Below are positions 10,171 through 64,000 of a stretch of DNA of 64,000 nucleotides, one piece after another. The notes under the pieces were generated by a model that worked only from the letters and a program-made list of their open reading frames with translations, was not told where the DNA came from and did not search any database. Source of the DNA: Tubulanus polymorphus (Eukaryota; Nemertea; Palaeonemertea; Tubulaniformes; Tubulanidae); contig NC_134030.1 of assembly GCF_964204645.1 (NCBI RefSeq), forward strand, positions 18,357,110 through 18,421,109. Reading direction: 5' to 3'. Both the position numbers and the translations under genes were made by a program. The stretch's first letter is position 1; each line of letters begins with the position of its first letter.

Positions 10171-10174
10171 AGGT

Positions 10175-34481: not shown

Positions 34482-34554
<73 letters not shown>

Positions 34555-38256: not shown

Positions 38257-38260
38257 TTTC

Positions 38261-41654: not shown

Positions 41655-42975
41655 TATTATTATTATTATTTTCTTCCACACTATTTTTACCAAAAGAACA
41701 TAGGCTTTGTTACCTTACCGCTGTTTCATATACAATCCATATAATATCGTTCAGCTCACTGAGATCTACAAATAGCCCGCGTGTTTTTTCACGAATCATC
41801 GTTACAAAAGCGCTGTCGGGCCGTAAACATCGAAAATTTAGCCCCATTCAATGGGGCGACATGTTTTTCGAGTCGTCATCCCGAAATCAACCCGCAGGCC
41901 GACTGTCACTTCGATTATCAATTCAAGTATAAATGAACTAATTTATTGCCGCAGACTTCACATTCAGTCGCGGTCTTCAAACAGTGATTTTAACAATAGC
42001 CCATTTTCCTCATCAGATCATATTACCGATACACTGGAAATTTACTACTTTAGATGTTAAAAGCACTGTCGAGCCGTAAACATCGACGAATCGACGTGTG
42101 TTACTACATCGTCGTTCCGGGGATCAGCTGCGAGTTTCTCCTCATCATGAGAATCAAATCGAGTACAAATTAATTTATTACTACCAGTGATTTGGCTGCG
42201 GGTTTCAAGGAGTTAGTTTAACAATACCTATTTTTCTTTACCGAATTAACCGTGTATTTACTAAGATAAATCTTTAGTGTACCGGGGAATCGTAGGCCTA
42301 AACTAAACACGCCGAAGAGATATAGCGGAGAAAAGCTGTTATGTCGACGAGGTATCAAAATAAAAGAATATATTACTTTATTCGGCCGCGGGCTTCAACC
42401 TCTTGTCAATACCATCAATACTCTATATTTCCTACAGTACATACCGATCATTGTCAAATGCACAAGGTATTTACTAAATACAAGTATATAACACAATCCT
42501 TTCCGTATGCTGGACTCACACTTGACATTCGGAGTAAGCGTTCGCTGTGGGGGAAAGGGATTTTTCGCTGTGTCGCTTGAAGTGTTTATCGAGTTTGACG
42601 CGGCTTTAGGCCTACCGGTACTGAGCTTTACTGTATCAAACAAACACAGTATAATTGTTGCGTTTATTAACGGACTCATTGGATTGAACTTTAAACAAAA
42701 TTTACGATATTTAGGTGGGTTGTTATTCAATAGGCCTACGACCAATCTGTCCGGATGTTAGGCCTACATAGGCTAGTAGCCTCTACTAGGTTAAGCGTTC
42801 GCTGTGGGGGAAAGGAGATCGTTCGCTGTGTCGCTTGAAGTGTTTATCGAGTTTTACGCGACCTTAAGGCTTTAGTATGGTGGCTGATAAGGGCCATGCG
42901 TAAAAAAACACGTAAATGCAAATGAGGGCGACATTATGACAAAACGACAAAACTAAAATAACGCGACAAAACAAT
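41655..42975. repeat. Segmental duplication A, copy 2
   Basis: A second copy of 34,605-35,605 with an additional segment at about 41,968-42,300. It ends in the same satellite-flanking sequence (CATGCGTAAAAAAACACG, about 42,893), so the satellite edge was included in the duplication. Confidence 0.8.
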
Positions 42976-43936
42976 AATTTTGGTTTTGTCGCCCGGGACA
43001 ATTCATTATTTTGGTTTTATCGCCCGCGACAATTCATTATTTTGGTTTTATCGCCCGCGACAGTTCATTATTTTGGTTTTATCGCCCGCGACAATTTTTT
43101 TTTTGTCGCGGTTTTATCGCCTGCGACCATTCAATATTTTGGTTTTATCGCCCGCGACAATTCATTATTTTTGTTTTGTCGCACGTGACAATTCATTATT
43201 TTGGTTTTATCACCCGCGACAATTTTTTTTTTGTCGCGGTTTTATCGCCTGCGACACTTCAATATTTTGGTTTAATCGCCTGCGACAATTCAATATTTTG
43301 GTTTTATCACCAGCGACAATTCATTATTTTGGTTTTATCGCCCGCGACAATTCATTATTTTGGTTTTATCGCCCGCGACAATTCATTATTTTTGTTTTGT
43401 CGCACGTGACAATTCATTATTTTGGTTTTATCGCCCGCGACAATTTTTTTTTGTCGCGGTTTTATCGCCTGCGACACTTCAATATTTTGGTTTAATCGCC
43501 TGCGACAATTCAATATTTTGGTTTTATCACCAGCGACAATTCATTATTTTGGTTTTATCGCCCGCGACAATTCATTAGTTTCGTTTTATCGCCCGCGACA
43601 ATTCATTTGTTTCGTTTTGTCGCCCGCGACAATTCAATGTTTTGGTTTTGTCCCACGCGACAATTCAATATTTTGGCTTTATCGCCTGCGACAATTCAAT
43701 ATTTTGGTTTTATCGCCAGCGACAATTCATTAGTTTGGTTTTGTCGCCCGCGACAATTCAATATTTTGGTTTTGTCGCCGGCGACAATTCAAGATTTTAG
43801 TTTTATCGCCCGCGACAATTCATTTTTTTGGTTTTGTCGCCCGTGACAATTCAATATTTTGGTTTTATCGCCAGCAACAAATGATTATTTTGGTTTTATC
43901 GCCCGCGACAATTAATTTTTTTGGTTTTGCCGCCCA
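42976..43936. repeat. 31-bp satellite array 2, about 30 monomers
   Basis: Same monomer as array 1. A distinct variant with a T-run then GTCGCGGTTTTATCGCCTGC recurs at about 43,100, 43,225 and 43,445, pointing to local higher-order duplication. Open frames are artefacts of the 31-bp period. Confidence 0.95.
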
Positions 43937-44024
43937 CTTTATTAGCTTTTGAATAATTAGGCCAATTAATAACGTAATAAAGACTTATGCTTTCGCCTAT
44001 TTTGAAGTCGAATAATCTGATATA

Positions 44025-44442
44025 GTACGGAAGCGATAGAGGGCCTCGAGTTGTTGCGTTCAAACTCGACAAGTCGCCATATTTATGTCGATATATCGCG
44101 ATATATCGCGTCAAGTCCACATGAATATGTCTTCATATCGTGACGTTTTCACAACAAATTTCGCTTTTTTGCTCATTTTCCACGGGACAAGCCGTCATTT
44201 GAAGACATGTCTAAATGTAAGATGAGGACGCTAGTAATATGACGACTGAGTTTCAAGTCGTCATGAATATGTCGACTTGTCGCGAGGAAAATGGTCGAGA
44301 AAACGAAATATGTCGTCAAAACGTCACGATATATCGACATATTCATGTCGACTTGACGCGATATATCGCGGTATGTTGACATAAATATGGCGACTTGTCG
44401 AGTTGGAACGCGACATCTCGAGGCCCCTTATCGCTTCTGTAC
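44025..44442. mobile_element. MITE-like element with long TIRs
   Basis: Its ends GTACGGAAGCGATAGAGGGC and, inverted, GTACAGAAGCGATAAGGGGC continue into arms of more than 100 bp containing ATATATCGCGATATATCGCG-type words. Flanking TATA/ATATA words may be the target duplication. A half copy, one arm only, lies at 44,537-44,700. No protein. Confidence 0.75.
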
Positions 44443-44536
44443 ATATAGTGTCGAATATTAAGGTCATTTTGGCAGATTCTTTTTTTTTTAAAGTGATATT
44501 AAAGCGATGATTCAAGTGATCCTACTTAATGAAAGA

Positions 44537-44700
44537 TCTACGGAAGCGATAAAGGGCCTCGAGTTGTCGCGTTCCAACTCGACAAGTCGCCATATTTATG
44601 TCGATATATCGCATCAAGTCAACATAAATATGTTGACACATCGTGACGTTTTGACGAATTTAAACTCAGTCGTCATAGCACTGGCGTCCTCATCTTTCAG
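44537..44700 (+). repeat. Half copy of the 44,025 MITE
   Basis: It begins TACGGAAGCGATAAAGGGCC and follows the left arm of the complete copy through GTGACGTTTTGACGA, then diverges. Confidence 0.7.
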
Positions 44701-44889
44701 CAACGCCAGTCACATGGAGTCGTACGTGTTCTACTTTCTGCGACGCGACACGACTGTCACGACCAACCGACGCGCTCTTGCGACTGGCAGAAACTAGTCG
44801 CACACAATCGTATTGCAACCGACTTGCACTGAAACTTGCGATGCAATGCGAGGATCGCATCGTGTCACAAGACCAACGTACATCCGGCT

Positions 44890-45384
44890 TTAAGTTACTT
44901 CGGAGCACCAGAAATATCTTTTTTTTCGTTCAAAAGACCTTTCGCTTGAAAATTCTTTCGTCGGAACAAAATTTATTTCGTTCGAACCAATAATATTCTA
45001 TACGATTGAACCAATTTGAAAAAATCGTAAGAACAAAGTTGAACAAACTTTTTTTTGTCCAAACGAAAGGTTTTTCGTTCGAACTATCGTTCAATTGAAC
45101 AGAATCTTTTTTAATTTGAACAGAATTTTCTTGTCAGAACATTAAGTTTTTCGTTCGAACAAGTATATTGAAAAAGGTTCAATCGAACAGAATTGTTTTC
45201 ATTCAAACATTCGTTCGAAAAAATTGTTTTCGCTCGACCAATTTTTTTTGCCGGGAAAATTTCATTTCAACAATAACATAGCTTTTTATTCGAACACATT
45301 TTTTGTCAGAATGAAGAAAATTTTTGGTTCAAGCAAAAAGCGTATTGTTCGATCAAACAGAAATATTTTCATTCGAACAAGATT
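44890..45384. repeat. Degenerate TTCGTTCGAACA-type minisatellite
   Basis: Irregular repeats of about 20 bp around TTCGTTCGAACA(G)AATTTT, in both TTCGTTCGAAC and TTGAACAGAAT forms, run up to the start of segmental duplication B copy 2. No coding content. Confidence 0.7.
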
Positions 45385-47560
45385 TTCTTGTTGGAACATT
45401 AAGTTTTTTGGTCGAACAGCGTGTTAAGGTCGATTTGGAAATTTACTCGGTCTGGTATATGTTGGATTACTGTGTATGTCATTTGTCAGGACATTAAACA
45501 GAAGACAACTTAGGATACTACCTTGCGTGACTCCACTAGTTTGACCGACTTATTCCAAGATGAAGCGTTCCGTTGATTTCGGCTACAAGTTTTCGTTCAG
45601 AGATAACTGCTGAGCCATTTGGGCGACCTATCATTGATACTGTTTCCTAATAGCCTGTTTAGTAATGGCTGATGTTGTGCCTTATCAAATGCTTCGTCGA
45701 AATCCAACGTTGAACAGGATTCTAAGACTGTGCAGAAAACCCGTTATCGCTGCTTTGCAGCTATATTCATTATTATATTCTTTTTCACACTGGATCTTAC
45801 TGAAAGCATATAAACTACTGCAACTTACTTTCACTGTCGGTGAATCCATTCTGTATCACAAGTACTACGCTGCATTGACAAATACTGCGTATAATATTAA
45901 TCAGAATGCCACTGTTTACTCACTGTGAGCCTCTAAACATCGAAATTTAAGCCCGATTCAAACAGTATTCATCTACGTATGTGTATTGCCTGTGTGTCAT
46001 TCCCACAGCACGTCAGTATGTGTGTTTGTGTCAGTGTCCCTATAAGCATTGATGGAGCTGGTGTACTAGATCTGTAGTTTTTTAGTATTTTTATCTCTTC
46101 TACTATTGTGGCGCACTGAATGAGGTCAGTCTCGAGTGAACGCAACTGAGGAATTTAGCCTTGTTTGTGTCGCCTATACAAACAATAGCATCCTGGCAGT
46201 ATCTTCCCTGTATAGAGCTAATTAATGCAGCTATACGCGAGAGCCTGGATGGTTATATTCTGCTGGCATTACAATATTCCTTGACGGATTTACTTTTAAC
46301 TTTCGTGAGATTTACGGAACACAGGTACCTTGAGGTAAGTCGAGGGGATTTTAGATCGGGGACCCCGTTCACCCACCAGGGGGTGTTTTACTTTTGAAAA
46401 TTCTGACATCGAAATGTTACTGTGTGAGAAAAATTTTTCTCTGAGTTTTCAGCCTCGGCCGAGCACGAAAGTTGTTCATTACAGCCTGGAGGCTAAAAAA
46501 GTCAATGGCACGCCCTATCTCCGATTAACCGTTTGGGCTCTACGGGCTCGAAAATGGGCCCCCAAATTTTTCAAAGAGATTTTTGCTCCTAGCTCCTTAA
46601 CCGTTGGATATAGAATCGTGGTTGCAACGAGTGATCAGTAGCCCTTGCGAAGACGCTTTTATTGATGCATGGTATAACTATGTAACTCATATGGTTCTCC
46701 AGTCGCGCCACCTATAAGACGCTGGAAAACGCGTTTTCATCTATATCGACTAAGGGTATCAATGGATTTCTATAAAAATTGATACACATGTACCTGGTTA
46801 CAAAACGAAACGAACCCCTCATATGATTAGTTCCCATTTTAACCACTAGGGGGCGTAAATTTTGAAAAATCGATTTCAGCATCCATTTTTGCATTTAATG
46901 CGGTCTGTTTATTATGAAAATCACAAAACTTAGTATAAGTACAAAGACACGTGTGTAATATGCCATCCTGCATGATTAGTTCTTACAACTGCCACCAGGG
47001 GACTGTGAAAACAACGATTTTTGCTCCTTGGTCCTTAACCGTTGGCGATAGAATCGAGGTTGCAATGTGTGGTTAGTAGCCCTTTTCAAGATACTTGGAT
47101 TCATGTATGGTTTAAGTAGGTAACTTATATGGTTCTCCAGGAGCGCCACCTACATTTTGCTGGAAATGCATTTTCATTGATAGCTACTAAGCGGATAAAG
47201 GGATCTCTATGAAAATTGATATACATGTACCTGGATATAAGTTACAACGAATCCCTAACATAATTAGTTCCTATTCTAACCACTAGGGAGCGTTAATGTT
47301 GAAAACTCATTCTAGCATCAGTTTTTTCGATTGTAATTCAGTAGTATGCTAACCGGCAAATTACCGGCCACTTGGGCATGGTAAAAGTACCGTATCTTCG
47401 TTATTATCGGTGTCATATCCCCTAACCTTGGTACATTAGAACTTTTCGCGTAGTATCCCATGTGAATCAACATAGCCATGTTATCAGCTGACCCCTAGGT
47501 GGCGCTCCTCATCCAGCAAGGCAGAAACCCGCTATCCCTGCTTTGCAGCTATATTTATTT
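45385..47560. repeat. Segmental duplication B, copy 2
   Basis: It corresponds to 39,623-41,504, with an extra internal tandem repeat (about 46,660-47,060 repeated at 47,060-47,500, each with a CCTATAAGACGCTGG/CCTACATTTTGCTGG segment and a CACTAGGG(G/A)GCG word). It ends with the same CAGAAACCCGCTATCCCTGC word but lacks the hairpin array. Confidence 0.8.
45440..45725 (-). pseudogene. LINE reverse-transcriptase fragment, copy 2
   Basis: It is duplicated with block B. It shows the same readable block SGVTQGSILSCLLFNVLTND (minus strand, about 45,484-45,543) and the same truncation as the copy at 39,680-39,965. Confidence 0.72.
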
Positions 47561-48339
47561 TTTTTAACCCTTTTCCACACAGTTTTTGTTAAAAGTGTAA
47601 AGGCTTCCTTACCTTACCGCTGTCGCCGATACAATCCGTATGATATCCTTCAGCCCACTTCAATCTCCAGATACTGCATGAGAATTTTGATAAATCCTCG
47701 TTATAAAGGCACTGTCGAGCCGTAAACATCGGAAATTTGGCTCCGTTCAATTAGTAGCCATGTTGTGTTGTCTTTCCGAAATTTCTCTCTTCTTTATGAG
47801 GAAGAGCTATCGAATTATTCCCTCTCTTCTCCACAATCAATTTCAAAGTCAATTTTATGAATTTATTGCTCAGCGGGTCCGAGTCCAAGAGTTTACGAGT
47901 CCGGCGTTCGCGTGTCTGACAGGTTTACGGGCATTTGTTGGTAACCTCTTTAATATTTTTGATTTGTTGTTATTCGGGTTATTTCATTTAAGTATATTGC
48001 TGATCAGTTCATGTAACCAAAAGCGTCAATAAACAGATTTTGAATTGATCAAGTTTAAATCAAGGTCGTTGAGTCGCGGAGGGCTGCTAGAATTACGTTC
48101 GTCTCAGAGAGAAAACAAACGACAGAAAAGTATCAGGTGATTATCGATAGCCTACTACGGTACACACAGTTGACAAACAGTGTTAGGCCTGTGCCGGTTG
48201 GTGCGTACTGGGAATAAATATACTGGTTGGTCAGTTGGTTCGGTTGTGAAGTGTGGAAGCTAAGAAAGCCTACCGCGCACCGGTATTTATTTGTCTAAAT
48301 AGGCCCATTATATAGTACCCAATAGCATTTTAAGTACGT
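47561..48339. other. Non-coding stretch
   Basis: The start is a diverged relative of the segmental duplications (CACTGTCGAGCCGTAAACATC at about 47,709). No splice-consistent coding sequence was recognised. Confidence 0.35.
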
Positions 48340-48340
48340 A

Positions 48341-48668
48341 GTTGTTACCTGTACGTGACTGTACGGTGATCTCCACAGGTTAACCGTACGTGAGTTCCCG
48401 ACTAACGCCGTACGTGAGTTCCTATAATCTGCAAACACGCATGCGTAAAAGAATAGAGTTTGGGTTAGGTGAGGCCAGGCTATTTGTAAATCAAATTTCA
48501 TCTAACCTGCAGTTACGTTCTGTGGCACAGTGGGTAAATCACTGGACTACTACTGGATTTTTTTTTTTCATTTGGTTTCGAATCCCAATGTTGCATGTCT
48601 GAGCGTCAACGTACTCACATATGGCTAACCTGTAGTAATCGCCGTACAGTCACATACAGGTAACAACA
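48341..48668. repeat. Inverted-repeat element enclosing a tRNA-like sequence
   Basis: GTTGTTACCTGTACGTGACT at the left is mirrored at 48,637-48,668 (TACAGTCACATACAGGTAAC). Inside are two CCGTACGTGAGTTCC words and the tRNA-like segment. It is a MITE-sized composite. Confidence 0.65.
48520..48600 (+). repeat. tRNA-derived SINE-like head or tRNA pseudogene
   Basis: TGGCACAGTGGGTAAATCA fits a Pol III A box in tRNA context. About 40 bp later GGTTTCGAATCCCAATG resembles a B box and T-loop. A poly-T run (48,558-48,568) interrupts the middle and the acceptor stem is not convincing, so it is not called a functional tRNA. Confidence 0.5.
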
Positions 48669-48861
48669 GCGTTTTAAGTATTAAGTGATTGCGACACGCC
48701 TACCATGCCTATGTGCTACAAACACAACTTTTTCCCCTCTCGTCGGCCCTACAGTGATGTTACTAATAACTGGTGCCATTATAACATGGATAGGATTTGG
48801 TCAGGATTAGCCTAAAGTCTAATTCAGTCTATGTACTAATTCACTCGATAGGCCTATTTTT

Positions 48862-49905
48862 AGCCCACTTGGGACTTTAGTCCCAGCGGGCTATTGCGTT
48901 CACTTTTCGTCCGTCGTCCGTCCGTCTGTAGACGGAATCCAGTTATTTTGGGAAGTTTTGAAGACGCTTCAATGTAATGTCTTGATATTTGGGTTACACA
49001 TGTATCTACCCTAGACACATCTTCAGCCCAAAAACTGGCCCTGTCAGAATCAAGATGGCCGACTGGCAGCCATTGTTGTTCGCCAAAATCAACACTTTTT
49101 ACACATTTTTGAACTTTTTGAGGGAAATTTTGAAGACGCTTTGATCAATTACCTTGATCTTTTGGATGTATGTGAATCCCCCCAGGGCCCATCAGCATAA
49201 CAAAAATTGGGTCGATCGGACACAAGATGGCCGTCCTATGACCTTTTTAGTGCCCAAAAATGTCAATTTTGGCCCGAATTCGGAGTGCTGTAGCTCCCTA
49301 CTGGTTCGCCATTTCTCATTGCAATTTGTGATGGGTATTCTTTGAAAAGGGATGTGTTATACCAGAGAGAGGTATTTTTGATCAGCCAATTATGATATAT
49401 TGTTGATATTTCAGCATATTTTCTTACCACAATCAATTGGAAAGTTGTAGCTCATGACATGGTTTATGATTGTGGTGAGTTTGAAGGTCATTGGTTTTTG
49501 TATATGGCCACCAGGGGGCGTTGAATAATACAATATCTTAGTATTTCTATATTATATTCGTATCAATGCATATTTTGTAACCACAATCAATTGCAAAGTT
49601 GTAGCTCATGACATCATCTATGATTGTGGCAAGTTTTAAGGCCAATAGTTATTCTATATGGTCACCAGGGGGCGTTGAATAGTAGAATAACTTAGTATTT
49701 CCTTATTATATTGGTACCTAGGCATATTTTGTTACCATGATCAATTACAAAGTTATAGTTCGTGACATGTTCTATGATTGTGGTGAGTTTCAAGGTCAGT
49801 GGGTTTTGAATATGGTCACCAGGGGGCGTTGAATATTAAAATTGTTAAATTGTTGAGCATTCGGAACCACTTCCCAAGTGGGCATGGTGTCCCTGGACCC
49901 CTAGT
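48862..49905. mobile_element. Non-autonomous element X, copy 2
   Basis: It starts AGCCCACTTGGGACTTTAGT and ends TTCCCAAGTGGGCATGG...CCCCTAG, like copy 1 at 38,261-39,361. A central segment (about 48,970-49,340) absent from copy 1 is followed by about three tandem units of about 154 bp with CACCAGGGGGCGTTGAATA. No transposase. Confidence 0.75.
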
Positions 49906-51380
49906 TAAAACAATACAGTGAAGTATTCACACGCAGAAAGGCCAATTGATTTGAGCCATGTGATTAAATTTGGCCAGGCCTTCTCTGACCTGCTGACATT
50001 AATAGTCAAACCTAGATCCAAAACGTTCATATGGTCACAGCTTGTATACCAGAAATCATTGTAGGCCTGTACATTTTGCTGTTCGTAGGTTTGGTATACC
50101 GATGTCTCCATTCTTGACTGATAAGTGTACGGTACAGCTGTACGCATTATACAATTGTTCCAATGGGAATAGAGCCTATTGATTGGGCTTATTATTTCCT
50201 GCTTTAGAATACTGAAATAAGCCTAATGTTCATTCAAATATCCAACATCGGTGAAAGTTTGATTACTGTATACATGTACTGTAGGTTTTCATGTATGAAT
50301 ATTTTGCAGTTCAAATGGGTATGATGCTGATTCCAATGTCAAACGCATGAAGTTAGATGGACAGTCAAAACCAAGATATCTCTCTTCGACCGATGTTGCA
50401 CCATAGAAGATCTGATTCTTTCAACTCGAGCAAAGTGATTCAACACGATCGACATAACACTGGAATAGGTTTGCAGTAACTAAACGGTTCATTTCATTTA
50501 GTCCTATGTACTTTTTTAGCCAATTTGAATATTATTGTAATTGAAACTCTGGAACTGTTAACAAAAGACAAGTTAAAAAACACAAGTTATGCCTGATTCT
50601 CATGTTCAAATTTAATTCAAATTCAAATTTATTTTATAACATCATATTTACAAAGCATATCATTGGTTCATACAGTAATAAAAATTAGGAAAGAACAAAT
50701 ATTATTACAGAATTTTAAAAAAGGCAATGAATTTCTATAACTAAATGAACATTATTTTTCTAATAACTCAGAACAAGAGTGACTTTCCCGTTTATTAGGA
50801 AACACACGCAACTAGTGGAATAGGTTTGATTTACACACATGTTGCAGGTATCAATTGTTTATCACTATAGAATTTGTAATCCATAAAAGCCAAAATCAAC
50901 ATCAGCCGGAAACCCAGACCAGATCAATTCATAATTTATTGATTGAATCTACGCTACAATATATGTACGTGTATTTATTCAAATATTTCAATAAAAACAT
51001 TAACTTCTTCAATATATTCTAAATCATAATACGTTCTTATCTGTAAATTCACTCAATCTATCGACTCAGCAGGTGCGAGATGAGTTCTCAATAGGACAGA
51101 TCCATTTTTAAGCATGGTGATAATACAGTATCATGATGTTTGAATGCCAAAATAAATGCCTGGTCAAATAGATTAATATTTGTTGATTGTACGTCCGCGT
51201 ATGTTCGGTTTCAAAGCTGAATCATATTTGACGTTTACACAGTGGTAGCATATTAGGTTCGAATCTGTCAATGCATTTTATTCTATGTATCGATATTTCA
51301 ATTTACTACAATTTCGATCTTTCTGATTGGCTTTGCAGAAAACCCGTCATCGCTGCTTGGCAGCTATATTGTATATTTGA
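49906..51380. other. Non-coding stretch before the Ig B/C duplications
   Basis: No signal-peptide exon for the downstream Ig copies could be found here. 50,615-50,660 is A/T-rich with ATTCAAATTCAAATTTATTT, resembling a retroelement tail. The end (about 51,340-51,370) carries the CAGAAAACCCGTCATCGCTG word shared with duplication B, fused directly to the Ig minisatellite. Confidence 0.35.
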
Positions 51381-51709
51381 TATTTCAGCACCTGATGGAG
51401 TTGTACTAGACAGTGTAAATGTATTACCGGGTACACGAATATTACGTATATTGTATATTTGAGCACCTGATGGAGTTGTACTGGACAGAGTGAATGTATT
51501 ACCGGGTACAAGAATATTACGTATATTTTGTATTTGATATTTCAGCACCTGATGGAGTTGTACTGGACAGTGTAAATGTATTACCGGGTACACGAATATT
51601 ACGTATATTGTATATTTGATATTTGAGCACCTGATGGAGTTGTACTGGACAGTGTGAATGTATTACCGGGTACAAGAATATTACGTATATTTTGTATTTG
51701 ATATTTCAG
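51381..51709 (+). repeat. 82-bp splice-acceptor/exon-start minisatellite, five units
   Basis: Acceptor AGs lie at 51,388, 51,463, 51,545, 51,627 and 51,709 (periods 75, 82, 82, 82). Units 1, 3 and 5 have TTTCAG and units 2 and 4 TTTGAG before the exon start, an alternating two-unit pattern. The last unit runs into the complete Ig exon B. Confidence 0.88.
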
Positions 51710-52842
51710 CACCTGATGGAGTTGTACTGAACAGTGTGAATGTATTACCGGGTACAAATATGTTGCTGTCGCAGGAAGGTAAAACTGTCAGTATTACCTG
51801 TAAACAAAGCAATACTGCAGCGTCTGGTGTACACTTTCAGCTACAAGCTAGTGGAGCAGGAGAGACCTGGATTCCATTGCATCTTATCTCGTCTAAACCA
51901 GTGTGGAAAATTTTACCCGAGGCTGGAAAACAGTATAAATGTGTAGCCACTAATTCTGCCGGAACGAAAGAAAGTCAAATCTACAAATCAGATGTAATCA
52001 GTGAGTATGGCGGGAACTCGATTGTCCTCTGTAAATCAGTTGGTCATGTGACAATCTGTTTGTTCCTACAAAATGCACCAATGAACCTACTAATTGCGAA
52101 AGGAAAATATGTTGAAATAAATTACTGGATTGGCTGACAGTTTCTATACCAGTACCCTTCATATAGATAAATACATGACATACTGTCCATTGTTCCGCTC
52201 TCTATAAAAACTCTAAGGGTTAACTTAAATCTATCCCCACACTTATTCACTTGGACATAAATTAGTCAACCCTTATGGTGCATCTGATTTAAGATTAATC
52301 AAATAATGCTGGGGGAAAAAGGAAAACTTATCTGTGCTTTATTGTTTTGTACAATACCATGCCATGCCACCATGATGTACCATAATACCATACCATATCA
52401 TATCATTATAGGTATACAGATAAATGAAAACCCGTGTAAGGTAGCTGAATTCCAATCACTAGCTTGTACTTGTGAAGCCACTAGTAAGATTGGTAACCCA
52501 AACATAGCAGTAAAATGGTATGCTGATGCATATACTGAAGGTGTAACGGAGTTTTATCCGATTCATAAACAAGGTGTAAATACCGCGGAGAAAGATGGAA
52601 TTGTTAACAGGAATCAGATGGATTATAGAAACCTGATTGAGGCAACATTGATTCAATGTCAGTTGAGGAGATATAATGGTTTAATACTACCGAGACCACT
52701 TCAAAATCAAATACTACATCAAACTCGAATGGACGTTACGTGTAAGTTGTATGATATTTTCATCGAAGAATTTCCATTCGATATCAGAGTGAAATGCATG
52801 TTTCATTGTTTGTACTTATCGTTCGTCATTTATCTACTGTAA
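51710..52842 (+). CDS. Ig-like B+C exon pair, copy 2 (partial gene)
   Basis: Exon B (51,710-52,000, 291 nt, phase 1-1) contains VSITCKQS and QYKCVATNSAGT. Exon C (from 52,412, phase 1) contains ENPCKVAEFQSLACTC, VKWYADAY, IQCQLRRY and DVTCKLYDIF, and continues to a hydrophobic end (LYLSFVIYLL) and stop at 52,840-52,842. The order and junctions equal those of the gene at 29,467. No signal-peptide exon lies nearby, so this is either part of a longer gene or an incomplete duplicate. The reading frame is clean in both exons. Confidence 0.65.
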
Positions 52843-53199
52843 CTTGAACATATAAAATTATATTGTTAACATTTAGAGATTTGGGAGTTACTTAGATAAC
52901 TATTTATTTGCTTTTTCAAATCGAACCTTGTAGAAATGATTATACCTCAGGGTATGATTCAGGGACGGATTCACCCCTCTTAATATGGCATATCATATAC
53001 GTACATAATTGAAAGGGAAAAAAGCTTACCAGAAAACACTAACTAATTTTTAGATATACAGAGAATAAGCTTATGAATTTAAATTTCTTATGCTATCATT
53101 TTAGTATTTTTCGTTTTTTTAGAAAACCTTGCCATTTTCAGGGGCGTGCGCCCCATCCCTCCTCTTGAATCGGCCCCGTACCTATTGGAACACCTTTGT

Positions 53200-53493
53200 A
53201 TTACCGGGTACCAGAATATTACATATATTGTGTATTTGATATTCCAGCACCTGATGGAGTTGTACTGGACAGTGTGAATGTATTAACGGGTACAAGAATA
53301 TTACGTATATTGTGTATTTGATATTTCAGCATCTGATGGAGTTGTACTGGACAGTGTGAATGTATTACCGGGTACAAGAATATTACGTATATTGTGTATT
53401 TGATATTTCAGCATCTGATGGAGTTGTACTGGACAGTGTGAATGTATTACCGGGTACAAGAATATTACATATATTGTGTATTTGATATTTCAG
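53200..53493 (+). repeat. 82-bp splice-acceptor/exon-start minisatellite, four units
   Basis: Acceptor AGs at 53,247, 53,329, 53,411 and 53,493 give an exact 82-bp period. Each unit carries GTATTTGATATT(T/C)CAG and the start of Ig exon B. The fourth flows into the complete exon B. Confidence 0.9.
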
Positions 53494-54591
53494 CACCTGA
53501 TGCAGTTGTACTGAACAGTGTGAATGTATTACGGGGCACAAATATGTTACTGTCGCAGGAAGGTAAAACTGTTAGTATTACTTGTAAACAGAGCAGCTCT
53601 ACAGTGACTGGTGTAGCATTCCAGGTACAAGTGAATAGTGGACCAGGAGGGACCTGGACTGCATTACCTACAGCATCAGCACCAGTGTGGGTTTTTAAAC
53701 TGGAGGCTGGAAAACGGTATAAATGTGTAGCCAAGAATTCTGCTGGAACGAAAGAAAGTCAAATCTACAAATCAGATGTAATCAGTGAGTATTGGCGGGA
53801 ACTCGATTGTCCTCCGTAAATCAGTTGGTCATGTGACAATCTATTTTTTCTACAAAATGCAACTGAACCTACTAATTCCGAAAGGAAAATATGTTGAAAT
53901 AAATTACTGGATTGGCTGACAGTTTCTATACCAGTTCCCTTCATATAGATAAATAAATGACATGCTGTTCATTGTTCTGCTCTCTATAAAACTCAAATGC
54001 TTAACTAAAATATGGCCCCACACTTATTCACTGTGGACATAAATAAGTCAACCCTTATGGTGCATCTGATTTTAGATTTATCAAATAATGCTGAGGGGAA
54101 AAAGGAAAACTTATCTGTGCGTATGTGTTTCATTTCATATCATTCTCATCATAGGTATAAAGATAAATGAAAACCCGTGTAAACTGGCTGAATTCCAATC
54201 ACTAGCTTGTACTTGTAAAGCCACTAGTAAGATTGGTAATCCAAACATAGCAGTAAAATGGTATGCTAACGGATTTACTAATGGTTCAACGGATTTCGAC
54301 ATGATGCATGATCAAGGTGTAAATACTCCAGTGAAAGATGGAGTTATCAACAGGAATCATATGCAGTTTAATTTCATGATTGACGCAACATCGATACAAT
54401 GTAGTTTGTGGAGATATAATGGTTTAATACTACCGAGACCACTTCAAAATCAAATACTACATCAAACTAAAATGGACGTTACGTGTAAGTTGTTTGATAT
54501 TTTCATCGGAGAATTGCCATTCTATATCAGAGTGAAATGCATGTTACATTGTTTGAACTTAATCGTTCGTTATTTATCTAATGTAATTTGA
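53494..54591 (+). CDS. Ig-like B+C exon pair, copy 3 (partial gene)
   Basis: Exon B (53,494-53,784, phase 1-1) contains VSITCKQSSS, GGTWTALP and RYKCVAKNSAGT. Exon C (from 54,155) contains ENPCKLAEFQSLACTC, VKWYANGF, IQCSLWRY and DVTCKLFDIF, with a short tail (LNLIVRYLSNVI) and stop at 54,589-54,591. It is a tandem duplicate of 51,710-52,842 including about 350 bp of 3' spacer (the GGGGCGTGCG block at about 53,142 and about 54,900). No own signal-peptide exon was found. Confidence 0.65.
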
Positions 54592-54956
54592 ATATATGAA
54601 ATTCTATTGTAAACATTTAGAGATTTGGGAGTTACTTGCATAACTATTTATTTGCTTTGTCAAATCCAACCTTCTAGAAAATGATTATACCTCAGGGTTT
54701 GATTCAGGGACGGATATACCCCTCTTAATATGGCATATCATATACGTATATAATATATATATATATATATATAGGGAAAAAAGCTTACCGGAAAACACTA
54801 ACTAATTTTTAGATATACAGAGAATAAGCTTATGAATTTGAATTTCTTATGGTATCATTTTAATATTCTACATTTTCAAGTAAAATCTTGCCATTTTCAG
54901 GGGCGTGCGTCCCACTCTTCCTCTTCAATCGGCCCCGTACCTATTGGAACACCTTT

Positions 54957-55240
54957 GTATTACCGGGTACAAGAATATTACGCATATCGTGTATTTGATA
55001 TTTCAGCACCTGATTGAGTTGTGCTGGACAGTGTGAATGTATTACCGGGTACAAGAATATTACGTATATTGAGTATTTGATATTTCAGCACCTGATGCAG
55101 TTGTACTGGACAGTGTGAATGTATTACCGGGTACAAGAATATTACGTATATCGTGTATTTGGTATTTCAGCACCTGATAATGTTGTACTGAACAGTGTTA
55201 ATGTATTACCGGTTACAAGAATATTACGTATTATAACGCA
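54957..55240 (+). repeat. 82-bp minisatellite, three units, not followed by an exon
   Basis: Acceptor AGs at 55,006, 55,088 and 55,170. The array ends within the next unit at about 55,230 and no full Ig exon B follows, as if a fourth duplicate had been cut off. Confidence 0.88.
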
Positions 55241-56089
55241 GTCTCAAATGTTTTGTGACTTTCTCAAAATGTATCTAAAATTTTACTAATTTTTAGTTCA
55301 TAAGTCCTCAAATATTCATAAATGAACAGTTAAAAGTTGTTGAAACATGTCGACTCTGCCGTTAAATCAACCTATTTACAGTCCGGAATGTGGGATAATG
55401 TCGGGCTTTAGAGAACACAATGCCCCCGAGGTCTTCACATTTACAGAAAAGATTACGTAAGTGATCCACGCGCAGCGCGCGATAGGCGCACAATAGAAAT
55501 CTGAGCCGCTCGTTCTTTGAGTGTCACCAATTGACAGGACCGCTATTGTAAAAATTGACCTTGGGAGGAATATTCCTCCCAAGGTCAAACGAAGAGAATT
55601 TGACCTTCAGGTCTGATATTCAAAGTATCGACTTCGGGAGGAATGTTCCTCCGAATGTCAAACGATGATTTTTAGAAAGTTAAATAGCTGTAGTGCAGGT
55701 TCTAATGATGAGCCTAATAAAGTCTTCACATCGCAATCAGTTGCTAGAATGCATCTTCCTTTTTCTTTACTTGATCTTGAGTCTTTGACTAGTTAAATTT
55801 TTTTTTGATTGATTGACGCTGGGAGGTCTCGATCAAATTATATTGTTAATCAATTCAATTATTTTTCAACTGCAAATTCACACTTGATATTGATATTAAT
55901 AATCAAATTTACTTATTTCATTATATAGCGCACTGCTGCAAATTGTAATCAGTGTGCTTTGCATGAGTATAAAATTAACACAAGCTGAAAAAATCGAAAT
56001 GTAAATACGTAGATTATAAAAATCAAGTTAAAAGGTGTAGGGGCGAAGAGATCTGGCGAAAAAAAAAGACGGTAATGGGCGCAAAATGG
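55241..56089. other. Non-coding stretch with a perfect palindrome
   Basis: It contains the perfect 34-bp palindrome at 55,555-55,588 (arm TTGACCTTGGGAGGAAT), followed about 80 bp later by an imperfect relative (GGGAGGAATGTTCCTCC). No gene was recognised. Confidence 0.5.
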
Positions 56090-56728
56090 ACCCGTGCCAG
56101 ATTGCCCGACCAAAAAAGACGGACCAGACCTGAGTCAAATTAAGCGTGTTAATTCAAACTGGTTCTGGAAGTCAGTCTCAGAACCAGTTTAGTGACTGTC
56201 ACTTCGCTTTGTTTAAGTATGGACTCGTTTTAGATTCCATGGTTTAAGCATTGTTTAGTATCGAATGAATGGGTTTGAATTTGAATGTGAAATGAATTTG
56301 AACATGAAAATCGGCGCACTCTTTGGTGAGCCATGCGTAAAATTTAAGTCAGACCTGATTCGAGCCTATTTAGCCCCGACAAATCGTCTCTATAGCCGCG
56401 ATCACACGTGCATTTTTGGCCCGGGCTAAATATGGCCCGTGTCAAATTTGGCCCGGAGCAACTGTTCACACGGGTGCCAAATGGGCCCGAGCCTGTTTGG
56501 CCCGGCCAAATTTGGCCCGACCAGAAACGTCGGACCAGGCCCGAGCCTAATTTTGGCACCTGACAAATGACTGCGTTTGAATTGCAACTAGCACCGGAAA
56601 TGATCCGCTTCGCTTTGTCTGAGCATCGTTTAGTATCGAGTGAATGGTTTGCGTGTGAATGCGCTCTCTAATTAGGCACGGGCCAAATTTGGCCCGAGCC
56701 AAATCGTCTCCGTGTGATCGCGGCTTAT
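56090..56728. mobile_element. Two tandem TTTGGCCCG-rich MITE copies
   Basis: The second copy (about 56,392-56,728) is bounded by inverted AGCCGCGATCACACG / CGTGTGATCGCGGCT and contains repeated (A)TTTGGCCCG words. About 56,090-56,400 is a diverged relative, sharing GACGGACCAG-type words, CTTCGCTTTG, GTTTAGTATCGA and AATCGTCTC. No protein; a short minus-strand open frame across it reflects the repeat. Confidence 0.65.
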
Positions 56729-57699
56729 GTGATCCCGGCTTACGTGGGTCACGAGTGATGAGAGAAATCTTTCCCTTTATGTTGCAAATTAGCCATTGTC
56801 CTAGTTTTATCTTCTGATTTGTACCCTGTATAGCGTTTATATTTCTGTTTGTACTCTTTCATAGAAATACGACAGATATCAAATGGGATCTTTGATTAAA
56901 GACACTGTAGACCGGTACACACCAATATGTCCATCCATCCGACCTACGAGCGATCATCTCATTAATGTGATAATTGCTCGTAAATCCGACAGCTACGTTT
57001 TACAACGAGAAATACATTAGATCAGATTCCTGTTAATGAAATCATTACTATTAAAAATATGTTATTAATTATGAATAAATTAAAAAAGAATGGCCTTTAG
57101 ATATTGGATAGGGCGATTTTGAATTATTTTTGGGGAATTTTATCAAGAAGCTCAAACTCCCTAAGGCGATTAAATGTTTAAGGCAGATCTTTCCCGATTA
57201 TGATCCCACCATATGAATTGCTCATGAAACTATTATGTATAAACACCTCACAATTAACGTAATGACTGAGTGACGTCCTGTTGCACAAGCTATATTACAC
57301 CATGATAAAAAGCCTATTATAGTCGAGTTGGATTTCTCGATGTATAAATGCAGGGAGGGTCGGGAGCTTTATGTTCAATAACATTAGGTTCCTATAAATG
57401 TTTGCTCTATGGATTTCAAAATACAAGAAAGATCTACGTTGAACGTGATATCTGTTTTATTACTCGTGATATATCGGGGAATCTCTGCAATAAAATTTGA
57501 CGATTTCGAAACTATTACAAAATGAGCAAATTGCGATTCTTAGTGATATTTGCTAACAGTATTGATTCTAGCGTATACGCGGATTTGTGTGATATATAAT
57601 AAGTATCGTAGCGAATAATCAATGAGAAAAGTATCTACCGTAGCTAGATATGACAATTAAAAATCCCATATCCAGAATATCGCCCTCAGAATACCTTCA
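56729..57699. other. Non-coding stretch
   Basis: AT-rich DNA without recognised exons, repeats or RNA genes. Confidence 0.35.
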
Positions 57700-58336
57700 T
57701 CCGTTCAAAAAAGATCCCCCTGGTAAAAATTCCCTATATAGAAATCTAAAAAATCTAAACCCTAGGTAAACATGGTAAACATACCCTGGGTAAAAATCCC
57801 CAAAGATTCAATAATCCCTACTTGGTGATTGTCAGGAACATTTCGAAGCACGATGTTTCTCCAATTTAATTCATTTGCAATGAGACTGTAATATGTTTGA
57901 TGAAATCTTTAATGAAATCTTTCGTTGCGCTAAATTCTTAGGGACAAAATAAATTAATGAGAGTAATAAACTTTTATTGTAAGAATTAATATTCTTTTAT
58001 TGTAAGAATTAATAAGAGTAATAAACTTTTTTTTGTAATATCTTTTAAGATTCGAACTGGTATATTTTTGAACTGCGGACTCTTGTTAACTTGTGATATA
58101 TTTCAGCTGTGCGATGCCATGAATTATTAGAAATAATGTACTTTTGATATTAAATATTTTAGATTCAAGCTAGTGTAATATATTTGAAATGTTCGATGAA
58201 CCGGGTACTTCTAAAGTACGAAACTACGAAATTAAGAAATGCTAAAGTACGAAACGAAATGGTCATTTTTTCGCGGGTCCTGCTAAAGTATAAAATGTAA
58301 TACGAAACGAAAATTTTGTAATTTTTTGCGCTATAG

Positions 58337-58483
58337 CAGCGGATTCGTGGAGCTGGCTTAAACATGCGCACCCGGTCTAGTGTGGCAGGGTTCCGTGCCG
58401 CGACTGAGTTTAGCGATGCCATCAGGGAGAATGATCTGCGCATGCTCATATACAACTGGAAGGTAGCGATTAATAAATTACGG
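58337..58483 (+). other. Exon-like segment inside the inverted repeat
   Basis: 147 bp between an acceptor-like GCGCTATAG and a donor-like GTAAGA stay open for 49 codons (phase 0), including GLNMRTRSSVAGFRAATEF and DLRMLIYNWKVAINKLR. The base composition is richer in G+C than the surroundings. No family was recognised and no partner exon was found; it could be a captured exon or chance. Confidence 0.3.
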
Positions 58484-58739
58484 GTAAGAGAACGAAGTGT
58501 GCCTTAAAATATATCCTGCAGTGTTTCGGCTAAAAAATTGATACCTCGTTTCTCCTCTGCTGAGGAGCTTAAAAGTTGACCCGACCGGCCGCTAATCTAC
58601 CCTGTACATTAATTTTTTCTGAGCTAAATGATCGATACTAGACAGGTTCAGATATGTCGGCCCGTGTCCAAGAACGGGATAATCCTATCGCGGTTACGAG
58701 CTCGGTGTCACGTGAAGCGCTTGCCTTTCCTTTCTGCTA

Positions 58740-59160
58740 CAGTCAACCCCGCATAAGTCGTCATCGAATTAGTATCATCACATCTCTAGTATAATTATTT
58801 TGGTCCCGATTTTTTTCTTCTTTAAACCTTATAAAGTAATGCTTATAACTCGTACTTTATAAGTCGTATTTTCACGTAAGTCGTATCAATTATAAATTCC
58901 AAATCTTCTGGTTTCATTCAAAATACCTCGCGTAAGTTGTAGCCCGATATGCCGGCAACAGATAAATCAAAAATACGCTACAATATTGTCTGTGTTTAGA
59001 CTGTTACAATGTAACTTTCTTGTGGTAGGGCACGATATATAGGACCTGCACGGTCAGCTCGGGATACGACTGGGCCGGGGACTAACCACGCTGGAACTTG
59101 AGAATCGTATATATCGTATTTTCACGGGTTATTCGCGGAATTCGTATAAAACCACTGTTA
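58740..59160. mobile_element. Possible pogo/Tigger-like non-autonomous element
   Basis: TA followed by CAGTCAACCCCGCATAAGTC resembles the terminus of pogo-like elements, and the interior repeats (A)TAAGTCGTA words. The other end (about 59,120-59,160) is too degenerate to define with certainty. Confidence 0.35.
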
Positions 59161-60080
59161 TGTTAATAATTGATACATGTGGTCAGCAGTATCGCACTGT
59201 ATCATTTATTTTCCATTATCAAAATGAAATAAACTAAGACCTTTACCCTGTCTGGATTTTGCAAGGGATGCGGATTCGAAAAGAAAATTCACGGCCGGAA
59301 TTTTTTTCAAATTGCTCGTCACTACGCTGTTAAGCGGTAAAAAGATCGTCATGTAGTCCATGTGTAGGGCCTATCATTTCACTATGCTTTACCGCGTCTG
59401 AGTTCGTGGAAATGGTGCAGCGTATTCATTATTTGTTTTTGAGAACATCCTACAAGTTTCTACTGATTGTAGACGTTCTTAAAACCCTCCAGTTTAAGAA
59501 AATAAATTCTTGAATATGGTACTTTCAAAAGATCATTTACATGCACCGCCGAGATTTTTACAGTCCCGTAGCGTTATAACGAGCTTTGACCATAGTATGG
59601 GCGTGTGTTTGAAATGTGACCATTTCGTTTCGTATTTCGGTTCGTATTTTAGCACTACTGGCAAAAAAATTTCCATTTCGTAATTTCGTTTCGTAATTTC
59701 GTAATTTCGTTTCATATTTCGTAATTTCGTAGTTTCGTACTTTAGCAGGACCCCGATGAACCCCTTTACTAAGCTGTGCAATAACCACATGTTTATGTAC
59801 TAATTTAGTATCAATGAAACGTTGTAGTAATTTGTAGTATGTTTTAATTCAAATAGGATAGTTTGTATGGGCATATTGATATCCTAATGGTGTTCGACAG
59901 TAAAATATAAATAGATTTGATATACGTATCAATAATACGAATTAATTGACCTTAAGATTGTATCTACTTATAATCCCTTCAAAGGGAGGGGATTACCTAC
60001 TTTGAAGAATTGGGGATTTTTACCGAGGGGATATTTACCTAGGGGATTTTTACTCAAGGGATTTTTACCGCTAACCCTTA

Positions 60081-60559
60081 GCAATGCACTGTAATGAACA
60101 ATTTACTTTGTTTTGCTAAATCAACTACTTGTAATCAATTCACTATAGAACTGTGGTCGATCCTAACAAAGAGTCCTTCATCCTTCATCTTCATCCTTCA
60201 GCATGAACTCTAGATTTTGGGCCTGGATATATTTCGGATTCATTACATGGTATCATGTGTGTGTAGAACGTTTGGGCGAAAGTATTATCCCCCGGTTTCA
60301 CGCTTAAAACAAACAGAAACAAGAAAATTAACTTTAATAAATTATTTGACGCCTGCGAAAAAATGTAGAATTTCTGGGATAAGCTAATGTGGAATTGCAA
60401 ATTTGAAATCGAAGTTTTAAGAAATTTGGGGAATTATGAGATTTGGCGATTGGGTAGATGATACAGTCTTAGACTGGTCTAATTTAAAAAAAAAATTGTG
60501 AATATGTGACCGATTTCGATTCACTTTTGCCTCTAAGCTGGTCTGCAACTTCATTGCCT
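60081..60559. other. Non-coding stretch
   Basis: No gene recognised. A small direct repeat (CTTCATCCTTCA) lies at about 60,176-60,200. Confidence 0.3.
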
Positions 60560-60868
60560 CCATGGTTGAAGAAAGAGCTCTTCTGATGTCTGCTTCATCA
60601 TGACTTCGAGCATATAGTGTAGCCAGCCGGCCCGGTCGACCGGGATCCCGGGGCCCGGTTTGGCTGTCACTCGATATCCTTGACTTGAGTCTGGGTTGAA
60701 GTAGACATTGTCATTTAAATAACTTATTCATGTTATTCTGTATGAATTACCCGTGTGTCTTGTATTTTGTATTTTCTTAGTTTAGAATTTGTAACTTTAT
60801 TGAATTTTGGGAATTTTATCCCGGAATTTCAATGTAATAAGGATCAATAAAGTATTGAACTGAATTGT
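60560..60868 (+). repeat. Likely LINE 3' tail
   Basis: After a GC-rich block (GGCCCGGTCGACCGGGATCC, about 60,629) the sequence ends ATCAATAAAGTATTGAACTG (about 60,842), a polyadenylation signal with a short repeat-like tail typical of non-LTR retroelements. No RT coding remains here. Confidence 0.45.
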
Positions 60869-61016
60869 CACCTTATACACATGCCATCAGTGGACGCGGA
60901 GCCGTATATGACAGTTATGCTATTATAAATTGCTAATCTCATGAAACCTGCATACCCCTAATATCGAACATATTTTCTAAAACATTTGAATATTGAAATT
61001 ATATGTTTACACGTTT

Positions 61017-61091
61017 TTACATAGACCGCTTGTAGCCGCCGATGAAATTCACGCCGGCCCTACTCAGATCGTAGATAGCTTCGTCATTCCA
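61017..61091 (-). other. Possible terminal exon of unknown protein
   Basis: On the minus strand an acceptor-like GGGTTCTAG precedes 24 codons and a stop, ending GVNFIGGYKRSM. It is short and unsupported by any partner exon; it may be chance. Confidence 0.2.
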
Positions 61092-64000
61092 CTAGAACCC
61101 CATGTCAGGGTCTGACTTTTATATCAGACTTCCAAATCGTGTATACATCCGCCATTTAACCGAATAATCTGATTTACTTATCATTTCTATTTATGCCTGC
61201 CGCTCCTGATATAAATCATACATCCTTTACTATTACAATACGTCTTCTCATGATATTCAATGCAATATAACATTCCGACGTTCAAATAGAGGTCATTATA
61301 TAATCACAGGGAGCCATTCTACATCTTTATCAATAATATTTTGCCAAATAGCTTTTATGTGTACACATAAACCTGTGACGTTTTGCACATCGATTTACGG
61401 TTGTCGTTTGTAGAATGACGCTGAATGGTTAGCATTGTTTAGGTTTCATAATGGTTACGTTTTATAAGGCGTCAAAAAATATTTTCATACATAGGCCATC
61501 GCATTTTAGAAATTGAACTGTTGACAAGTTGTATTAAATCTCTATAGATGAAACACTTTTAAGGAAAACGCATTATGTTTTTAGTTTCTATATATCTACT
61601 ATTGACTGTGTGCCTCGGGCTCAGTCAACTCGTCATCTCCATGATTGAAATATGTGATTAGGCAGTCCTATCAAAACCGGCGTAAATTCATACAAGCGAA
61701 TAATTTGTTGTTTCAAAAGGTTTTTGTTACCGGCTCGTCTACACGGTAATGGTCGAAATTCCCCGGTTAAAATCCCCTAAGAATACCCATTAAAGAGCTT
61801 ATGATTTGCTACCGCTGGCATGTTTTCGTTTGTACTGCAAAATTAAGTCCAAAATAACCGGAATCGTTTTGAAAGGATTTCTGTGAAAATTTTCAATTTT
61901 TCCCCACACGTCACTAAGTGCCTTTCAAATCAAGATAGATTCCTTATGCGTAAAAAGGATTGTAGCAATTGTTTCAGTTTTATTTATCTATGGTTTGATA
62001 CGTCAAGATTTCAGTAAAAAGGGCAACATCGTTTATGTTAGCGAAGCTTGGTATACAAGCAAGCTGACAATAACAATCCACCGAATTTTATCGGGTTAGG
62101 CTTTGTATAGCTCATTATCTATAGAAAGTCAGTGATTAAGTCCTAAGTAAATATTGCTCAATTAAAGAGAATTCATTAGTCGATGAACAATGTACAAGCG
62201 ATGACAGGCCTATGAGGCACCCGTAAATCAAAAATGTATTTCACGGATTTTGCTGTGCGATCCGATAAATTATTGAAACTTTTAATTTGAAATATCTTTG
62301 AAATACTAATTGAAATTTGAAATATTATTTTACCAGTGCGATAACTTTTAGTTTTAGTTTAGTATTAATGAAGTATTTCAATTTTTGGATAAACGTCGGA
62401 AAAATGGCTAGGGGAAAATTGCCGCTAAATAAATATTAGAATTTGCAAGTTTTGTGATAACTTTGAATTGTGAAATTTTACTGGACATTGGTGTATGCTG
62501 AATATCACGAACAACGAAACATATATCTCATACAAACGTTGATTTTCTTTTTCATCTTTCTTCATTTCAATAACAATCAATCGATCAAGTCGATTTAATT
62601 ACCAGGATAGCAACTATATGCGTTTGTGCTTTTAATCAACTAGTTTCCGAATCCGTGGTATGTCAATCAAAAAATAATTTTTAAGTCGAGAAAAAGTAAG
62701 ATGCATTCTATCAACTAATTTCAATCGAAATTGGTAGAATTATGGTGAGAGCGGCCATCTTTATATGATGTCGCTATCACATTGTATTCAAAACAGAATC
62801 AGAAAGATAAAGATCTTGAAGAAATAGCTTTTCTTGTAGAAATATATTTCCCAATAATTCAAAATAAATCAAATTTATTCTCAAAATGCTTATCACGTGA
62901 CCATCTGAGCCGTGTAGTTGCCAGTAATCGTAACCGACATAAGCAGGGAAGCAAGTGGGAGGATCTCGTACCCCGATAGTCGGCCTCAGTTGCTGCGAAT
63001 CGGAGCGCAGTCGACATAAGCTGGGCTGCGATCACGGTTGCTCTCAGTTGCGTCGGTAGGACTCGGTAGGCGTCGCGTTGCTTCCCGACATAAGCCAGCC
63101 TTTAGACATATCATTCCGATATATGGAGTTCTGGGCTTAGTAACGCATGTATAGAATGAATTTCATCCGATATTTTTGTAACATAATGTTTTCTCTCTGC
63201 AAATTCCTGACGTTTTCTGGGTGCTTACAGTGGCTAGTAGGCTGGATTGTATTTTCCCTTATTTCATAGATCCCCATGCATATAAACTTGAACTGAACTG
63301 TATGGGAACTCAGCTCGGTTAGGATTAAGCCCTCCTAATTAACTCCTATTTCTGAATTGTTTATAAAGGAGTGAAGAAAGAAACAAACCCTCATACCGAA
63401 TACACTTTACGTATAAATGAGAATAATGCATACTAGGACAATGGCTAATTTGCGACCTTAAATGAAAGAAATACGACTCGAATATTTTTATTTTTATCAT
63501 GCGCGACACGCGAATCTCCTATTAACACTAGTAATGAGAGAAGAATCCACACGAATGAAATGTATCAGCTTCATTATGATCTTTAATCCTTGAATGACGA
63601 TTCTTAATTTACACAAAACACTTAATATAAATGATTTGTATCGATTACTATAGAATTTCCATTTAAAGAATGCATTTATCAAATTACGTCGTCCATTGAC
63701 TCAGAAAATGAACCTTTAAACCCGTAAATTAGCTAAACTCGTGCCGTATTAAGCCATTTAGATTTATCGCAGCTGTCTTGTGAAAATTTGTAAGCAGTCC
63801 TTATATATTCTCTCAAAACTTAATTTCTATGTTATGCACGTGGTTTAATTACAATTTTCCCTCTACATGTTTATCGAGAAGCGCCTGATTACAATCTGAT
63901 TACAATTGGTTGTCAACAAAGTTACAGCAATTTACTGTTAGACAAAGAAAATACAAAATCTATTTAGTTTTCTAAAATTGTATAGTCTCATACCGTCTCA
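61092..64000. other. Non-coding right end of the window
   Basis: AT-rich DNA without recognised exons. About 62,935-63,110 is a more GC-rich patch in which ACATAAGC occurs three times in GACATAAGC-type words, probably a small dispersed repeat. Everything else is unassigned. Confidence 0.35.

Follow-up and report, generated by a model that had tools for sequence, protein, structure and literature searches.

The question raised by this locus is what a row of near-identical 3' splice sites in front of a single exon does, and how such a row came to be there. The stretch analysed, referred to here as the window, is 64,000 nt of the genome of the nemertean Tubulanus polymorphus (contig NC_134030.1, here C6; C6:18357110-18421109 of a 267.8 Mb assembly), and it contains four tandem arrays with an 82-bp period among exons of immunoglobulin (Ig)-type receptor genes. 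Each unit consists of 34 nt of intron end, GAATATTACGTATATTGTGTATTTGATATTTCAG, with the branch-point-like motif ATTAC, a T-rich tract and AG, followed by nt 1-48 of an Ig-like exon that we call exon B. We consider it probable that the array is a minisatellite of the 'mirage' type, for which Canestro et al. 2002 is reportedly the founding paper, that it has been multiplied and homogenised across the paralogs of the receptor family, and that splicing occurs at the last AG, with the upstream decoy acceptors mostly silent.

A reading made from the letters of the window (the sequence-only reading) had placed four arrays with this period and had described each unit as an intron end, an AG and the start of exon B. 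Both points are borne out by Tandem Repeats Finder (TRF) and by mapping of the exon starts, and the row of acceptors is real. Exon starts lie at 34,037, 34,122 and 34,204 in the first array, at 51,389, 51,464, 51,546, 51,628 and 51,710 in the second, at 53,248, 53,330, 53,412 and 53,494 in the third, and at 55,007, 55,089 and 55,171 in the fourth, with a spacing of 82 bp except for 75 bp between 51,389 and 51,464 and 85 bp between 34,037 and 34,122. The five AGs that had been predicted for the second array (Table 1) are correct, with TTTGAG at 51,463 and 51,627, and, as had also been noted, two of the arrays run into a full exon B (at 51,710 and 53,494) and the other two do not. The TRF scores, 409-679 in the four arrays and as high as 3,746 elsewhere, speak against a chance match. 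The stretches fetched from the assembly cover the listed array matches, carry L-numbers (L011, L013 and so on) and are given local coordinates.

The earlier observation was nonetheless an understatement, in that the arrays are family-wide and extend beyond the four in the window. Searches of the assembly for exon B, exon C and the array give lower bounds, and protein searches recover at least 32 copies of exon B, none of the 32 with a stop codon, and at least 33 of exon C, the exon that follows it. Twelve exon B loci stand in tandem at C6:21.68-22.09 Mb, 25-43 kb apart and mostly about 38 kb, and one further copy lies on another contig (C9:303-304 kb). Directly before exon B there are 2-24 head-to-tail units in 28 of the 32 copies and one unit in the other four, the units per locus being 1, 1, 1, 1, 2, 2, 2, 2, 3, 3, 3, 4, 4, 5, 5, 5, 5, 5, 5, 7, 7, 7, 7, 8, 8, 8, 8, 10, 10, 11, 13 and 24. 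The total is 34 array groups with 193 units, in which the truncated first units of L015 and L034 are counted and from which a 35th group (L015:3182), a spurious match, was dropped; the spacing is exactly 82 in 155 of 159 cases. Chance or an assembly artefact is unlikely to account for 34 array groups that occur on two contigs and in both orientations and whose adjacent flanks, at the 32 full-exon loci, fall into 15 classes. Nor is there any sign of a splice site carried by a dispersed transposon, as the array matches (at least 78) all fall on C6 and C9, either in the window or in the stretches fetched for exon B.

The units differ little between loci. Among the 28 array loci, the mean difference is 2.3% in the unit's 34-nt intron part, 6.4% in exon B nt 1-48, 7.8% in nt 49-96 and 15-23% in the remaining exon, and it is 49-58% in the intron after exon B. 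The control was the 34-nt intron end that precedes exon C, for which an ungapped comparison, which may overstate the value, gives a difference of 48.9%; it was made on 27 of the 32 copies in the fetched stretches after five with less than 60% identity or no AG at the expected place had been dropped. The 155 complete decoy units include 93 distinct sequences, the commonest of which occurs 46 times and in 17 of 29 array groups. The low difference in the intron part, against 49% before exon C, and the recurrence of one sequence in 17 of 29 arrays argue that units have spread or been exchanged between loci, because the flanks of many loci are far more diverged than the units. Exchange or spread would thus account for the homogeneity, and the units appear to have undergone concerted evolution both between loci and within arrays, although recent spread would give the same picture.

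The loci could also be kept alike by constraint acting directly on the 34 nt of intron end, such as that from a bound splicing factor, and the contrast of 2.3% with 48.9% at the intron end of the next exon is what this would predict. Constraint is nevertheless a very unlikely substitute for exchange: selection alone would need to act on redundant copies too, and the decoys, although redundant, depart from the consensus little more often than the last unit does (1.34% against 0.79%). In addition, the intron end is of another kind in the single-unit copies of L012 (twice) and L014, and units of exactly the same sequence are found at several loci. At the divergent paralog L013 an intron end of its neighbours' type is followed by one added unit two bases off the consensus; these neighbours, the other three copies of its sub-cluster, are without an array and share an intron end that is not that of the unit. 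Set against the final 26 nt of the unit's intron part, the intron ends of L017, L019 and L025 differ at three bases and the one preceding 34,037 at two; a near-unit end of this sort may have given rise to the unit, or the unit may have taken its place.

The two arrays of the window that lack a full exon are 5' halves, separated from the rest of their arrays by large insertions, as shown by an uninterrupted paralogous locus that is collinear with the window. This paralog lies near 22.28-22.29 Mb on the other strand (L028, L027) and consists of exons B, C and D2 followed by three uninterrupted array-B-C modules. Its positions 6204-7368 are collinear with window 33,020-34,267 (84.6%), a flank that matches the start of the paralog's 13-unit array, and positions 7773-11060 with window 51,365-54,649 (89.2%), 11184-11761 with window 54,645-55,231 (88.5%), and 11680-13649 with L011 3313-5384 (85.4%). 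It follows that 34,014-34,267 belongs with 51,365-51,709 in a single array, interrupted by 17,097 nt, and that 54,957-55,231 belongs with L011 from 3313 onward in a second, interrupted by 18,972 nt. This second array resumes at L011:3313 and reaches its full exon B at L011:3659. The same collinearity rules out that the orphan arrays are separate decoy loci. The first insertion has TATATT on both sides (6 nt; 34,262-34,267 and 51,365-51,370) and a dispersed repeat at its right end, and no terminal inverted repeat was found between its first and last 3 kb. The second has terminal inverted repeats of about 257 nt with 93.8% identity, copies of which form six facing pairs 7.0-9.4 kb apart and others that are wider. 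The tested ends of both insertions are dispersed repeats, with 39 further scored copies each (of 235 and 321 candidates in all) that are 95-96% and 96-99% alike. A 31-bp satellite lies inside the first insertion (35597-38254, 39362-39624 and 42962-43935) and occurs also at L013:9409-9777.

Array length is unstable, as comparison of paralogs with like flanks shows. L017 and L019 have eight units and L025 two, and L020 has five and L024 three, with flanks that match at 95.7-98.6% for some 1-1.2 kb to either side. Two other pairs (L021 with three units and L026 with five; L022 with eight and L023 with two) are 95.8-97.9% alike upstream and share only about 250 nt directly downstream, at 87-88%; being alike upstream only, these pairs are mosaics. 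The sequence-only reading had proposed that the arrays could drive unequal exchange, and part of this stands, in that array lengths differ between paralogs and units are common to the loci, whereas the mosaic flanks do not single out the arrays as special exchange points. When identity matrices of 600-nt windows from the 12 tandem loci are correlated across boundaries, the array gives a value of 0.50 and six other boundaries give 0.65-0.89. With the most diverged loci, L015 and L016, removed, the ten-locus value for the array is 0.55; boundaries upstream of it give 0.79-0.95, and those downstream 0.51, -0.04 and 0.16. The downstream boundaries being equally mosaic, exchange is common along the gene, and these values do not establish the array as special. 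It is improbable that the arrays are kept for promoting the unequal crossing-over or gene conversion that duplicates or reshuffles Ig modules. Such a role would suit the mosaic of array length and flanks between paralogs, the lower correlation across the array in the full set of 12 loci, and the three array-B-C modules in a row in two paralogous loci, but the downstream boundaries of the ten-locus subset are as mosaic or more so, and one assembly cannot separate by-product from purpose.

The splice signals of the units are intact almost throughout. The AG is kept in all 129 regularly spaced decoys (127 CAG, one TAG and one GAG) and in all 26 last units, and it stands directly before 190 of the 193 unit starts, the other three being first units of which those of L015 and L034 are incomplete and that of L011 was placed 3 nt off the AG. 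The A of ATTAC is at -27 in each of 155 regularly spaced units, and in the consensus unit there is no AG between this A and the unit's own AG. Read in the exon frame, 151 of 161 decoys meet a stop inside their own unit, 146 of them after 23 codons, at an in-frame TGA in the unit's intron part (TTTGATATTTCAG). Ten decoys are without an in-unit stop, among them that of L023 (3683-3764), where two units have an 81-nt spacing and the upstream acceptor is open through the whole of exon B, adding 27 residues. Variants in the exon parts of decoys are spread evenly over the codon positions (29/40/39), so that decoys do not look like coding DNA; we note that the same 45 nt of full exons are also evenly varied (18/14/18).

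Insertion of micro-exons, which had been offered as one outcome of the arrays, finds no backing in these signals. A break at CGG/GTACAA, with the GT at unit position 43, would give a 42-nt exon of symmetric phase 1, but the next AG is only 34-40 nt past the unit's exon end (34 nt separate the exon part from it), donor-like sites in the consensus unit match at most six of nine positions, by plain match count against the donor consensus MAG/GTRAGT and not a trained model, and GTRAGT is absent from all 159 decoy stretches. That units are spliced in singly is most unlikely.

A use of the upstream acceptors that rises with array length is a more serious alternative, and one that we regard as unlikely rather than remote. 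Truncated or decaying mRNAs would then result, and unit copy number would set the receptor output of each paralog. The intact AG of every regularly spaced decoy, with a complete acceptor in each unit, the stop reached by 151 of 161 decoys within their own unit, and a 3' splice-site core that is less variable than the rest all fit this. Against it, the TGA is part of the repeated intron end, so that the stop is copied along whenever the unit is; in four of the 32 copies of exon B an open exon stands behind one unit only; and amphioxus mirages reportedly leave splicing undisturbed (PMC3087553, PMC3902484). Some tuning of exon B by decoys, as the sequence-only reading had suggested, is possible. 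The further proposal, that a fast-changing number of decoys sets the share of full-length and truncated product for each paralog of a clustered Ig-type receptor family, has a smaller chance still of being right. Were upstream acceptors used in this way, receptor output could diverge between paralogs and between individuals without coding change, and L023 would represent a step from decoy to alternative exon.

We favor instead the mirage-type minisatellite with silent decoys. It would have begun with a tandem duplication across the boundary of intron and exon B (34 nt of intron end and 48 nt of exon), followed by multiplication of the unit through unequal exchange or slippage, and the units would then have spread and been homogenised among the paralogs. 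The pre-mRNA would be spliced to the last AG, the sole acceptor that leads into a complete exon ending in a good donor. Two features would bring this about: every unit has an ATTAC of its own, whose A is at -27 from the exon, and exon definition, which presumably acts here, prefers whichever acceptor is closest to the real donor. Acceptors farther upstream would be mostly silent, and where one was used the in-unit stop would nearly always end the frame.

Several observations weigh against this account. Unit variation has some array structure, with 2.56 differences per 82 nt within arrays and 3.09 between them (20 of 1000 permutations were equally low), and the start of the full exon has 2.35 differences from its own decoys and 2.30 from the decoys of other arrays, which does not point to local conversion into the exon. 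Lengths are equal in some paralogs, L017, L018, L019 and L022 all having eight units. The 3' splice-site core (-12 to -1, 12 of 82 sites) has 13 of 165 per-array variants where 24 are expected (p = 0.006), and no variant falls in the decoy AG (p = 0.017); when the comparison is confined to the intron part, the core has 13 of 53 and is not clearly poorer (p = 0.064). These tests count each variant once per array in 153 of the 155 units, with the incomplete first units of L015 and L034 excluded, and they assume a uniform rate and independence and ignore shared ancestry. Low variation in the splice core would also fit decoys that are kept working.

The closest known systems are the amphioxus mirages, for which two reports (PMC3087553, PMC3902484) describe minisatellites in Adh3, in the globin genes BflGb6 and BflGb9 and in troponin C, and imperfect repeats of similar kind in PGBD5. 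Many of the units contain an AG, the repeats are unstable in length (the 150-160 bp repeat of BflGb6 has six and three units in two haplotypes) and homogenised, reverse transcription PCR suggested normal splicing, and the repeats were proposed as a source of new introns; somatic instability of Adh3 is cited in PMC3087553. The nemertean arrays share the tandem repetition of a 3' intron end and a 5' exon part that reiterates the splice signal, the length differences (here between paralogs) and the homogenised units, and thus have the structure of mirages. They differ in that one 82-bp unit is common to 28 paralogous exons on two contigs in up to 24 copies, and in that the units are alike between loci; splicing in amphioxus was followed by reverse transcription PCR, and that proposed here is predicted from sequence. 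Internal tandem repeats, some at exon-intron boundaries, are also described for human genes in segmental duplications (PMC2812944), and are similarly of minisatellite type with gene structure changed in recent paralogs, but these have 30-bp units in four copies on average, half are coding, and they do not form a row of one shared acceptor. The Sp185/333 (SpTransformer) immune genes of sea urchins likewise form clusters, change fast and have tandem repeats both inside and next to the genes (PMC5103432, PMC10887614), although there the repeats are said to surround the genes and to sit inside the coding exon, and the accessible parts describe no acceptor row. Our literature search, with most subscription papers beyond its reach, found no family-wide array of this kind. 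The arrays thus extend intron-exon minisatellites from the single amphioxus genes for which we found them reported to a whole paralogous receptor family of another animal, and their 32 natural versions, with 1 to 24 acceptors before the same exon, amount to a dose series for the choice of the spliceosome among near-identical 3' splice sites. They bear also on how such repeats spread between loci and on whether the expression of fast-changing receptors is altered.

Table 1. Arrays, exons and insertions of the window (coordinates within the 64,000-nt stretch).
Position	Strand	Feature	Basis
29657..29950	+	Third full exon B in the window, 294 nt; single unit before it, array-type intron end	
30176..30502	+	Exon C of the 29,657 module, 327 nt	
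33218..33541	+	Third ectodomain exon (D2), homology range only	
34014..34267	+	Array, 3 units; 5' half of split array	TRF, exon-start mapping, collinear paralog
34268..51364		First insertion, 17,097 nt; splits first array	Collinearity
51365..51709	+	3' half of split array; decoy acceptors end 51,388, 51,463, 51,545, 51,627; last acceptor 51,709	
51710..52000	+	Full Ig-like exon B, 291 nt, phase 1-1; donor GTGAGT at 52,001	
52412..52741	+	Exon C, 330 nt, phase 1-1; donor GTAAGT at 52,742	
53197..53493	+	82-bp array before second exon B; acceptors end 53,247, 53,329, 53,411, 53,493	
53494..53784	+	Second full exon B of module row, 291 nt	
54155..54484	+	Second exon C, 330 nt	
54957..55231	+	5' half of second split array, 3 units	
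55232..64000		Second insertion, 18,972 nt, left part; ends at C6:18431312 beyond the window	

The single unit before the exon B at 29,657 may be a collapsed array, and no repeat array is present at the acceptor of the exon C at 52,412. Exon B matches Ig_2, ig and I-set of Pfam at E 0.008-0.009, under the curated cut-offs. A profile search of the PDB gives 85 sequences at E<=1 (best E 0.0011), the 60 listed being mostly antibodies and Ig cell-surface proteins. Its AlphaFold2 (AF2) model has beta strands at a pLDDT of 62, and Foldseek finds nothing at E <= 0.001, the best match (1.7e-3) being an FNIII domain followed mostly by antibody variable domains. Exon C has no Pfam match, its sole PDB profile match (E 0.42) is unrelated, and its fold model is unusable (pLDDT 33); a Pfam scan of two of the three plus-strand frames of 44-58 kb gave no match. 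At L012 2436-2705 there is a match to a D-type exon on the strand opposite to the two exon B copies of that locus. A transmembrane exon and a cytoplasmic tail with repeated PYMDM/SYMDM motifs are encoded at 25538-26272 (+), with counterparts at L023 115-236, L024 1-120 and L031 265-474; the tail repeats are a 42-bp coding minisatellite, and their YxxM we take to resemble PI3-kinase docking motifs.

The region is rich in minisatellites generally. A 109-bp repeat in 3.1 copies (23059-23395) lies just behind a D-type exon (22,657-22,974), and each of the ten loci L017-L026 has 51-52-bp repeats of varying copy number some 2-2.8 kb past the exon B start. An open frame at 18109-19560 (-) is presumably a Penelope-type reverse transcriptase. 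A 930-residue open frame at 11401-14190 (+) contains a NACHT domain (E 1.3e-14), with NLRC4_HD2 below the cut-off, and is a predicted NLR-like gene adjoining the Ig-type receptor cluster. Searches of the assembly for COX1 and innexin gave no match, the innexin search being without a working control. Elsewhere on C6 (5.318-5.635 Mb) there are ten Hox-type homeodomains in a row on one strand, apparently an ordered Hox cluster of lophotrochozoan type, which from their signatures we take to run from Post2 through Lox2/Lox4-like, Antp and Lox5-like onward to labial.

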